NCBI GenBank assembly: GCA_937930845.1
Contig: CALHBJ010000007.1
Span: 62,001-126,000, forward strand
Direction: 5' to 3'
DNA length: 64,000 nucleotides
Origin: an uncultured Rhizobiaceae group bacterium
GTDB taxonomy: Bacteria > Pseudomonadota > Alphaproteobacteria > Rhizobiales > Rhizobiaceae
In this document: one piece after another, positions 51,631 through 55,803 of the stretch
How positions within the stretch are numbered: position 1 is the stretch's first letter
Layout: every line of letters starts with the position of its first letter
The notes under the pieces: model-generated
What the model saw: only the letters and a program-made list of their open reading frames with translations
What the model was told of the DNA's origin: nothing
The model's database searches: none
Program-made: the position numbers and the translations under genes

Positions 51631-52350
51631 CTAAGTTCTGCTTACCCGGGTAAACGTCCCCTCACCTGCGATCACGCGGGCCAGTTCACCGGGTTGATGA
51701 ATCGAAAATACTACAAGATCGATATCATTGTCGCGCGCCAATGTAACTGCCGACATATCCATAATGCCCAACGCTTTTGACAAGACATCATCATGCGACA
51801 GGGTATCAAAACGGGTGGCATTCTTGTCTTTTCGCGGATCAGCCGAATAGATGCCATCCACCTGTGTTCCTTTAAACACCGCATCAGCACCAAATTCTGC
51901 AGCCCGCAGGGCCGCTGCCGTATCCGATGTAAAATAAGGGCTGCCGGTTCCGCCCGCAAATATGATCACATCGCCAGCGTCGCGCGCGGCGATTAGCCCG
52001 CGCTGTGTGAACTGATCACACACTTGAGGCACAGCCAGTCCGGACAAGACAGTTGCAGGCACGCCACGCTTGTCAAATTCCATGCGCAACGCCAGCGCAT
52101 TCATAATGATGGCCAGCATGCCCATATGATCGCCCGTTACGCGGTCAGCACCTTTTGACGCAAGAGCCACCCCCCGAAACAGGTTTCCACCACCCACAGC
52201 CAGGGCAATCGACACGCCCATGTTTCGGGCTTCGATAATGTCAGCCACAACGCGCTCAACCATTGTGGGATCAATCCCGAAAGACTGCTCGCCCATCAGC
52301 GCTTCACCGGAGATTTTGTACAAGATTCGGGTAAATTGAACCTGCCCCAT
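51631..52350 (-). CDS. pyrH: UMP kinase
   Basis: The protein is 239 aa. Family blocks are '[19 protein letters not shown]', '[13 protein letters not shown]', '[21 protein letters not shown]', and '[20 protein letters not shown]'. It phosphorylates UMP to UDP as a hexamer controlled by GTP and UTP. It is separated from tsf by 742 bp that carry two short plus-strand genes, an unusual insertion between genes that are often adjacent. Confidence 0.96.
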
Positions 52351-52606
52351 CGAATCTGTCGTCCTGTCACATACTGTTCAAAAACTGCGCTGTGATACAC
52401 GAAGGCCGAAACCTTGTCACGCTGCCCCCTCCATACATGGCGTTAATCAGCATGTGTAACAAATGCCAAAATCTTTGACGATCTGCCCAAAAATGGAGTA
52501 AGGGAACCGTGCGGTATTTCAAAACTGGAGTATCCAAGGGGCGATTCCAACATGCGACGACGCCAATATTGGGCGTTATACGTATTTTGTATAAGGGTTT
52601 GGGCAG
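52351..52606. other. Intergenic segment upstream of pyrH and of the first micropeptide gene
   Basis: This divergent stretch should carry the pyrH promoter on the minus strand and the promoter for the first short peptide on the plus strand. Short frames here lack ribosome binding sites. A long minus-strand frame across it looks random in composition. Confidence 0.5.
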
Positions 52607-52702
52607 ATGAAAAAGACTTATGAAAGACCACTGGTACAGCCCCATGGCATGATGAAACCAGCTGGTGGAGATACACCTGTGAGTGGTGTAGCAAAGACCT
52701 GA
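52607..52702 (+). CDS. 31 aa micropeptide with a lasso/RiPP-leader-like motif
   Basis: The ATG at 52607 has AAGGG 9 nt upstream. The peptide begins MKKTYERPLVQPHG and ends ...GVAKT. Tyr5, Pro8, Val10 and Gly14 fit the YxxPxLxxxG signature of lasso-peptide leaders, the part bound by the RRE protein, with Val for Leu. It shares the MKxxYxxP start with the peptides at 52836-52955 and 55705-55803. The second half is Gly/Pro/Val-rich with no Cys. No maturation enzymes are visible in the window, so the gene is either an orphan precursor served by enzymes encoded elsewhere or a peptide with another role. The reading frame is too short to be proved by composition. Confidence 0.5.
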   Translation: MKKTYERPLVQPHGMMKPAGGDTPVSGVAKT

Positions 52703-52835
52703 TCTTTTTAAAACACAACACCTGATCAAGAGCTCAGGAAGCGAAACCACTTTAAAAAAATTAACGAACAGACTGCAGACACAACTTGCAGCTTCACAAA
52801 AATAGCGGGCAGCCCGTTCATACAGGAGCACTACA

Positions 52836-52955
52836 ATGAAAAAGATCTACACAGCCCCCGAAGCGAACAAAGACTACAAAATTCAGGCAATTGCCGCCAC
52901 CATTGTGCTGAGTAATGGCACAGTCATTTCAGACTTTATTGGCGATTTAGAATAA
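52836..52955 (+). CDS. 39 aa micropeptide with a related leader-like start
   Basis: The ATG at 52836 has a strong Shine-Dalgarno (CAGGAG, 7-8 nt upstream), and the gene ends with a double stop (TAATAA) followed by a strong terminator. The peptide begins MKKIYTAPEANKDYK and continues with a hydrophobic centre (IAATIVLSNGTVI) and an acidic end. Tyr5 and Pro8 match the other micropeptides; the later Gly of the lasso leader is absent. It lies 133 nt after the first peptide on the same strand, so the two may share a transcript. This is the best-supported of the short genes. Its function is unknown. Confidence 0.62.
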   Translation: MKKIYTAPEANKDYKIQAIAATIVLSNGTVISDFIGDLE

Positions 52956-52982
52956 TAACCCAGCAGGTTCATTACTTTAAAT

Positions 52983-53023
52983 GAAAAGGGGCAACCGGCC
53001 TGAATGCCGGTTGCCCCTTTTTT
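52983..53023. terminator. Strong bidirectional intrinsic terminator between the micropeptides and tsf
   Basis: AAAAGGGGCAACCGGC pairs perfectly with GCCGGTTGCCCCTTTT across a 6 nt loop. On the plus strand seven T follow; on the minus strand TTTTCATTT follows. It should end both the micropeptide transcript and the convergent rpsB-tsf transcript. Confidence 0.95.
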
Positions 53024-53092
53024 GTGGCCCTTGCCAGTCCGGTTTATCTGGCATTGCGCCTTAAACCGAACGTCTGCAATTCGCCGGGTCGA

Positions 53093-54010
53093 CTAAGCCT
53101 TGTTCATGGCTGCGACTTCAGCGGCGAAATCATCTTCTTCTTTTTCAATGCCCTCGCCCAACTGGAAACGCACGAAGCCTTTCATGGCAATGGGCGCACC
53201 GGCATCTTTTTCAGCGTTTTTCAACGCCTGTTCAACGGTGTTTTCGCCGTCGATCACGAAGGTCTGCGACATCAGCACATTTTCTTCGTAGAACTTGCGC
53301 ACGCGCCCTTCGACCATTTTCTCGATGATGTTTTCTGGCTTGCCGGATTCACGGGCACTTTCAGAGAAGATTTTCTTCTCACGCTCAACAACTTCTGCAT
53401 CCATGTCATCACGGGTTGCAGCAAGCGGGTTTGTGGCAGCCACATGCATGGCGACCTGACGACCGATTGCAGCAAGGACATCAGCATTGCCGGAAGATTC
53501 CAGCGCAACCAACACACCAATCTTGCCCAAGCCGCCGGTAATGGCATTGTGGACATAAGAGGCTACAACCCCTTCGCCCACTTCCATGACAGAAGCACGG
53601 CGCAGGCCCATATTTTCACCGATCGTAGCAATCGCTTTGGTGACATTATCGGCAACAGTCGCACCGTTCAGGTCTGCCGCATTAATCGCATCAACAGAAC
53701 CATCGGTCGTGATGGCTGTTTTGGCGATGTCGGAGACCAAAGCCTGGAACGCTTCGTTGCGGGAAACAAAATCTGTTTCAGAATTGACTTCAACGATTGC
53801 CGCTTTCGAGCCTTCGCTGACAACACCCACAAGGCCTTCAGCCGCCGTGCGGCCAGACTTCTTGTCGGCTTTTGCGATGCCCTTGGTGCGCAACCAGTCA
53901 ATGGCGGCTTCGATGTCGCCATTGTTTTCGTTCAACGCATTTTTGCAATCCATCATGCCTGCGCCAGTTTTGTCGCGCAGTTCTTTTACCAATGCTGCGG
54001 AAATAGCCAT
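53093..54010 (-). CDS. tsf: Elongation factor Ts
   Basis: The protein is 305 aa, the typical alphaproteobacterial length. The N-terminal UBA-like part has [19 protein letters not shown], with the T-G-A-G-M-M-D-C-K signature; the core has '[19 protein letters not shown]' for contact with EF-Tu, and two subdomains follow. It recharges EF-Tu by releasing GDP. The gene lies 212 nt after rpsB on the same strand, with a weak hairpin at the rpsB end. Confidence 0.96.
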
Positions 54011-55308: not shown

Positions 55309-55704
55309 GGCTCGCATCTCCTTTTACCGGTTGTGCCTTGCGCGGAAAAGAACGACGCCAAGTTGCGCCGCACCGGAGTGTCGGTCAGTGCCGTGTTATT
55401 GCTAACTGGGGGCTGAGAGATGCCGAAACATCTTTGACCAACACGCATCCGCGTGTGGAATGCGATGGCTTATAGCGGGGTTCGTGCCAGATGCAAGCAC
55501 AAAATCTACCGGGCCACATCGCGCGCATATAAAGCGCTTGAAAGCCATCACCTGGGGTTGCGCGCAGATGGTTGCAGCCCACTGGCGCAAGTGTGGCCGA
55601 GTTGACGGTATATCCGTCAAAATCAAGCATCCCCAACTTAGGCAATTGTCCAACATAGAACCGATCGCCGGTGTCCCTCCGACCGGACTCAAATGTCAGG
55701 TATT
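55309..55704. other. Intergenic region upstream of rpsB
   Basis: This holds the rpsB leader and the candidate promoter. An exact inverted repeat, TTGACGG-5 nt-CCGTCAA, lies at 55602-55620 and looks like an operator or a weak hairpin. No convincing gene is seen below 55705. Confidence 0.5.
55469..55496 (-). promoter_or_regulatory. Candidate sigma-70-type promoter for rpsB
   Basis: TTGCAT (55491-55496) and TATAAG (55469-55474), 16 nt apart on the minus strand, lie about 160 nt upstream of the rpsB start. The leader would then be long enough for regulation by S2, which is known in other bacteria. Confidence 0.4.
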
Positions 55705-55803
55705 TTATTTTGAGCGACGTTCGTCAGAAATCGGAACTTCCGCTGTCACGCTGGCCATTTTTTCGGCCACTGTAATGACTGGTTTTTGATAAGTGCTTTT
55801 CAC
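55705..55803 (-). CDS. 32 aa micropeptide with a lasso/RiPP-leader-like motif
   Basis: The gene starts at a GTG (55803) with AGGG 8 nt upstream. The peptide begins MKSTYQKPVITVAEKMASVT and has a charged end. Tyr5, Pro8, Ile10 and Thr20 match the YxxPxLxxxGxxxxxT pattern of lasso-peptide leaders, with Glu14 in place of Gly. The Thr would mark the end of the leader, leaving an acidic and basic tail of about eleven residues that does not look like a typical lasso core (no Gly or Ala first). It lies on the opposite strand and about 2.8 kb from the other two peptides. It may be co-transcribed with the DUF938 methyltransferase and a 43 aa frame upstream. Confidence 0.5.
   Translation of the reverse strand: MKSTYQKPVITVAEKMASVTAEVPISDERRSK

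Follow-up and report, generated by a model that had tools for sequence, protein, structure and literature searches.

Scattered YxxP-leader peptides in a Rhizobiaceae genome: candidate precursors of phosphorylated linear RiPPs with a remote, cyclase-free gene cluster

Introduction

Between the minus-strand genes pyrH and tsf of an uncultured Rhizobiaceae bacterium lie two very short plus-strand reading frames that begin almost alike. Are these frames genes, what could their products be, and where in the genome are the enzymes that might mature them? We approached these questions in the window (the whole analysed stretch of 64,000 nucleotides), in the remainder of the genome to which it belongs (the source genome) and in genomes of relatives.

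Results

The original prediction described two plus-strand reading frames of 31 and 39 codons with ribosome-binding-like sites and a perfect inverted repeat, all of which are present (Table 1). The sequence AGGAG lies 7 nt 5' of the ATG of peptide 2 and a weaker AAGGG 9 nt 5' of that of peptide 1; the terminator repeat was read from the sequence, and its inner part was also listed by the repeat and promoter scan of the gap. The GC content of the gap is 46.4% against 53.7% for the window, a value as low occurring in 0.6% of 742-bp windows. The Rfam scan returned sub-threshold matches only, to the rpsB sRNA (RF01815, 29.1 bits, cut-off 40), upstream of rpsB, and to BSnc120, on the terminator. 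The prediction had also seen no maturation genes, in agreement with a profile search of the window, which found no enzyme genes; the cluster described below sits on another contig, C10.

Table 1. Positions of the features discussed. Unprefixed coordinates are window positions; an L prefix marks other loci.
Feature	Position	Strand	Details
pyrH	51631-52350	minus	
pyrH-tsf gap	52351-53092		742 bp
Precursor peptide 1	52607-52702	plus	31 aa; MKKTYERPLVQPHGMMKPAGGDTPVSGVAKT; leader MKKTYERPLVQ.., core candidate around ..TPVSGVAKT (Ser26)
Precursor peptide 2	52836-52955	plus	39 aa; MKKIYTAPEANKDYKIQAIAATIVLSNGTVISDFIGDLE; leader MKKIYTAPEANKDYKIQAIAA, core TIVLSNGTVISDFIGDLE
Bidirectional terminator, peptide 2 / convergent tsf	52984-53021		perfect 16-bp inverted repeat, 6-nt loop, T-run
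tsf	53093-54010	minus	
rpsB sRNA match, sub-threshold	55314-55457	minus	
Precursor peptide 3	55705-55803	minus	GTG start; 32 aa; upstream of rpsB; VKSTYQKPVITVAEKMASVTAEVPISDERRSK; leader ..STYQKPVITVAEKMASVTA, core EVPISDERRSK
P450 group	L017:7911-9200; L017:9758-11071; L019:7419-8771		haem motif FGxxHHxC
Formyl_trans_N-like genes	L018:7472-8401; L078:6737-7723; L120:5440-6453; L163:7613-8713; L119:7422-8375		
Related AMP-binding ligases	L078:12112-13692; L160:3605-5011; L163:5276-6703		40-49% identity; near the cluster in three genomes
Leader fused to Peptidase_S74-like domain	L078:9683-10084; L161:4857-5204		in G013 and G208, respectively

The common start is not confined to the gap. The pattern MKKxYxxP has nine matches in the source genome, eight of them open frames of 31-43 codons and the ninth running into a stop at once, and the reversed pattern used as a control has none. 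Among 80 relatives, 11 contain one match each (0.14 per relative), and the control pattern matches once in each of 3. The eight pattern members are found at four places: three on contig C1, two in the window (C7), two on C10 and one on C13. A profile of these eight revealed a further member, peptide 3 (E 6e-4, peptide 3 being outside the model), which is absent from the original prediction and brings the family in the source genome to nine. Lys2, Tyr5 and Pro8 are common to all nine, most leaders end near EKLxxVTA, and [PTV]-x-S-[GD] occurs in the core of each. Peptide 1 is retrieved from the source genome at E 6e-13, by a profile that contains peptide 1 itself. Neither Pfam nor NCBIfam holds a family above cut-off for the nine peptides scanned (eight from the source genome, peptide 3 not among them), and the NCBIfam scan of seven peptides of relatives gave one that passes NF033521 (lasso_leader_L3). 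A common upstream motif searched for in the eight precursor units of the source genome was not better than in six shuffles. The nine scattered tiny genes look like one peptide-precursor family.

On contig C10, the source genome carries a cluster of a PqqD-type RRE (B1), a lasso-type peptidase (B2), an HprK-like kinase and an NTP_transf_5 protein, with two precursors and a formyltransferase-like gene also beside B2. The Transglut_core3 protein of this genome is a single copy, on C10. B2 passes the NCBIfam model lasso_biosyn_B2 (NF033537; 57.4 bits, cut-off 33) and its Cys71 and His108 are invariant over 10 sequences; the B2 profile has no convincing match in the PDB, and that of the B1 RRE matches TfuB1 best (2e-16). 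The kinase-like protein belongs to no Pfam family. Its His, P-loop Lys and Asp-Asp are invariant over 14 sequences, two of which come from lasso clusters, and HprK structures are the best PDB matches of its profile (2e-6); in the available part of PMC9266682, His-Lys-Asp-Asp is the motif named for lasso-peptide kinases.

Other genes accompany some clusters and precursors. A possible extra tailoring enzyme is a Formyl_trans_N-like protein, encoded close to the clusters in the source genome, G013, G179 and G207 and at the peptide array of G090. In 14 of the 16 cluster loci an AMP-binding gene is present; most of these genes are paralogues unrelated to each other, and only G013, G090 and G207 have an orthologue in common. 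Ten P450 genes were counted among 13 match rows in the source genome. Three of them form a separate group (35-37% identity), all adjoining leader peptides at two places (C1 and C13), from which they start divergently at a distance of 145-190 bp; no family member was found near the other seven, and no P450 gene beside the window peptides. P450s usually carry Gly at a position of the haem motif where the C13 copy has Asp (FGVDHHKC). The group occurs in 6 of 396 other genomes; its relatives come from Kaistia, a MAG of Hyphomicrobiales and plasmids of Mesorhizobium, and some adjoin glycosyltransferases. No leader-like frames were seen by these relatives at nine loci inspected by pattern and by eye (flanks of 1-8 kb), and thus the P450 link is known from the source genome only.

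The leaders and the cyclase-free cluster tend to occur in the same genomes. The leader profile matched 18 of 397 genomes of the order (E <= 0.01); the number of matches in a genome reached 15, weak ones included. B2 was searched for in 34 genomes, comprising the 18 leader-bearing ones, 15 leader-negative ones and the same-genus G013, for which B2 was already known; it was present in 16 of the 18 leader-bearing genomes against one of the 15 leader-negative genomes, which had been chosen from those at hand and were not a random draw. The 23 loci that were read (20 from this survey, C10 of the source genome, G013 and G179) comprise 16 cyclase-free loci with B1, B2, HprK and NTP_transf_5 and seven with a cyclase. 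The cyclase-free cluster was found in 15 of the 18 leader-bearing and in none of the 15 leader-negative genomes (Fisher 1e-6), in seven of ten leader-bearing against none of seven leader-negative genera (p 0.01) and, within genus g68, in 5/5 leader genomes against 0/3 others (p 0.018), all counts being phylogenetically clustered, as same-genus genomes are not independent. The best E-values of the three leader genomes without the cluster (G043, G277 and G388) are the weakest among the 18, and their leader matches may therefore be false. Of the leader-negative genomes, 14 lack B2, and that of G356 stands in a lasso cluster. B2 had already been seen in five genomes of a previous sample of 41 relatives: the source genome, G013, G007, with a lasso cluster, G046, with an adjoining Asn_synthase-like frame (by reading), and G021, below cut-off.

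Most precursors lie apart from these enzymes. B1, B2, HprK and NTP_transf_5 are all missing from the fetched flanks of 37 of the 45 leader loci; 35 of these are also without a cyclase or a P450, two have a P450 only (C1 and C13 of the source genome), and the remaining eight loci carry the cyclase-free set. The flanks measured mostly 4-7 kb, shrinking to about 1 kb on one side where L122 and L170 reach a contig end, and the window was taken whole; lasso-precursor loci, short duplicate loci and S74-type precursors above 60 aa were excluded. In G429, one precursor is at the cluster and the remaining matches are elsewhere. Leader peptides are also found on Mesorhizobium plasmids, where one near such a match is annotated as a 'putative RiPP precursor'.

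Two further arrangements were observed. At four loci of genus g116 (L108, L110, L111 and L112), 4-6 precursors stand in tandem, their leaders nearly identical and their cores different. In G013 and G208, a leader of the same type is fused to a Peptidase_S74-like domain (SDxRLK) near the cyclase-free cluster; the Pfam match is shown for G013, and the end of peptide 3, PISDERRSK, resembles the start of that domain.

The fetched loci yielded 86 unique precursors, and exclusion of two with long S74-like tails left 84 short cores, delimited at a constant distance from the Tyr, with a median length of 10 aa (range 6-22; 70 of the 84 below 14 aa). Every one of the 84 contains Ser after the leader. 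No Ser-less core was observed, whereas permutation of the core residues predicts a mean of 17.4 (sd 2.9) and never gave fewer than 8 in 5000 rounds. None of ten other residues tested fell below its permuted range, Pro coming nearest (13 cores without it, 18.0 expected) and Cys being clumped (60 without it, 47.3 expected). Ser-less cores number 0 of 55 after removal of redundancy and 0 among 90 unique matches of a leader-only profile, six of which (five lasso precursors and one chance frame) dropped out at E 1e-3; the test is partly circular, since core positions were part of the first search profile, whose matches then served to train the leader-only profile.

Discussion

The leader family, the single cyclase-free cluster, the co-occurrence of the two, the Ser in every short core and the kept catalytic residues are the observed basis of our interpretation. 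The reading we favour, with a probability of about two in three, sees the three window peptides as RiPP precursors that are matured in trans into linear products with a phosphorylated Ser and no leader, which would make the system an alphaproteobacterial analogue of the linear polyphosphorylated peptides (LPPs) of Bacillota. The stand-alone RRE encoded on C10 would bind the YxxP leader, the HprK-like kinase would phosphorylate, perhaps polyphosphorylate, the conserved core Ser, NTP_transf_5 may put a nucleotidyl or sugar group on the phosphate, and B2, as a cysteine peptidase, would cut off the leader after ..VTA/IAA. The product, of about 6-22 residues, would stay linear because no cyclase was found. 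At the two P450-bearing loci of the source genome, the adjoining enzyme is a possible local addition to the tailoring. The role of NTP_transf_5 is uncertain because deletion of the NTP transferase had no effect in the LPP study, according to the available part of PMC13381572. We infer binding, phosphorylation, cleavage and the acceptance of the divergent leaders 1 and 2 from the sequences. The suggestion of the original prediction that the two peptides are orphan RiPP precursors hence holds in kind, given that the leader family co-occurs with the PqqD/B2/HprK/NTP_transf_5 cluster, and needs amending in that the enzymes are on another contig of the same genome.

An alternative that leaves the family intact is that peptides 1 and 2 are decayed or unused relics which are no longer recognised. 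The leader of peptide 1 is among the most divergent and lacks the EKLxxVTA end, that of peptide 2 has no large hydrophobic residue at P+2, and as both rank among the lowest-scoring leaders of the family, the two peptides may be decaying. The conservation of the frames in relatives that the original prediction called for was not found in 60 relatives, where the gap DNA had no match and peptide 2 chance-level matches only (E 0.1-0.9, in 3). Neither the locus nor its two peptides are thus conserved in these genomes, but members of the leader family occur elsewhere, and the family itself is not refuted by this result. Moreover, peptide 1 has no sigma-70-like promoter before it in the scan of the gap, which placed both of its promoter-like sites beyond 52927 (two sites, against 1.2 in shuffles). 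Nevertheless, the start, Tyr5, Pro8, the intact frames, the core Ser (in PVSG and VISD, respectively), the ribosome-binding-like sites and the terminator are all retained, and we regard it as unlikely that these peptides are mere relics.

The dispersed layout also invites the idea that B1 and B2 only cleave the peptides, which would then be unmodified short signals, with the kinase and NTP_transf_5 serving just the two C10 precursors. Most precursors are indeed far from the enzymes, and the cores are short and resemble signal peptides in length. However, the dispersed short cores all contain Ser too, a regularity that plain cleavage leaves unexplained, which makes a role for these peptides as unmodified signals improbable.

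The YxxPxLxxxG signature had been read as that of lasso-peptide leaders. In the form YxxPx[LV]xxxG, it fits peptide 1 only, peptide 2 lacking Gly14; the YxxP leader and the lasso-type B1 and B2 would agree with lasso precursors, and peptide 1 weakly matches NF033528 (lasso_cyano; 12 bits, cut-off 33). The signature stands for peptide 1, but its lasso meaning is not supported, as no cyclase was found beside B1 and B2 and nearly all cores are unsuited. No lasso cyclase was found near B1 and B2 on C10, and the sole full-length Asn_synthase of the source genome begins MCGI, like true AsnB. A lasso core has its ring acceptor, Asp or Glu, at position 7-9 and a length of 14 or more. Asp or Glu at 7-9 is present in 12 of the 84 cores, and one core (C1 peptide 3 of the source genome) combines it with a length of at least 14; the other 83 are too short or without the acceptor. 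In addition, each cyclase-bearing locus of the relatives comes with a B2 of its own, and the precursor, at those loci where one was seen, is of another kind. We consider it highly improbable that the window peptides are lasso precursors. Finally, chance frames or upstream regulatory leader frames, as might be suggested by the shortness of the frames and by a place not conserved in the 60 relatives, can be set aside in view of a shared leader profile and of nine pattern matches, eight of which are open frames, where a relative has 0.14 on average.

Phosphorylated linear peptides matured in trans are thus our preferred reading. If it is true, such RiPPs are not limited to Bacillota but occur also in Alphaproteobacteria, where a different peptidase would remove the leader; precursor families located far from their enzymes would escape cluster-based genome mining, and the Ser in every core together with the small enzyme set makes the chemistry directly testable. 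A wider proposal, to which we give somewhat less than even odds, is that in Rhizobiales-type bacteria tiny precursors with one common leader form a repertoire spread over the whole genome and are served by a single remote, cyclase-free and lasso-derived gene set. This set would phosphorylate and then glyco- or nucleotidyl-modify a single invariant Ser, and P450s or formyltransferases might add local tailoring in some cases. Such a system would count as a new class of RiPPs, whose diversity would come from the scattering of precursors and not from clusters.

How does this system compare with known ones? Our literature search among open-licence papers recognised no alphaproteobacterial cyclase-free system. 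The PGAP-annotated 'putative RiPP precursor' of Mesorhizobium sp. AR02 (WP_258589706.1, MKKKYEKPVLTKRDRLGSVTAQVVVISGPVA) has the same leader type and an ISG core, the annotation being a name only, with no maturation system given there. In P450-modified RiPPs such as aminopyruvatide (available part of PMC10635010), the P450 is beside the precursor, an arrangement found at C1 and C13 of the source genome only and not for the window peptides. With lasso peptides, the system shares B1/B2-type leader removal (PqqD; NF033537) but not the macrolactam cyclase (PF00733-type C protein). The phosphorylated lasso peptides of the paeninodin/pseudomycoidin type come closer: B1, B2, an HprK-like kinase with His-Lys-Asp-Asp, a nucleotidyltransferase and a Ser target are common to both, whereas macrolactam cyclase and lasso-competent core are lacking here (compared with the available part of PMC9266682).

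The nearest relation is to the LPPs, described in the available part of PMC13381572 as restricted to Bacillota and as having an RRE, HprK, an NTP transferase, no cyclase, an SpI peptidase and phosphates on core Ser3. Our system appears to work like an LPP system and yet is not LPP proper, as the leader motif and the transporter in the cluster differ. The leader ends here in KREKLxxVTA, and only YxxP is in common with the LPP leader YxxPxVLxHQxIxFETxxS; LPP clusters, as far as that part of the paper describes them, carry an MsbA-like/ABC transporter, for which a profile from lasso ABC proteins found no match in the 16 cyclase-free loci. Unlike in LPPs, as there described, a lasso-type B2 (Transglut_core3) stands in the clusters in place of the SipW-like SpI, and the precursors, mostly of 27-44 aa, belong to Alphaproteobacteria and are mostly away from the enzymes. 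The YxxP leader, the stand-alone RRE, the HprK-like kinase, the NTP transferase, the lack of a cyclase and the core Ser are, by the same account, common to both systems, and the cyclase-free combination of RRE, HprK and NTP transferase that marks LPPs is found in the C10 cluster of the source genome and in 15 other clusters.
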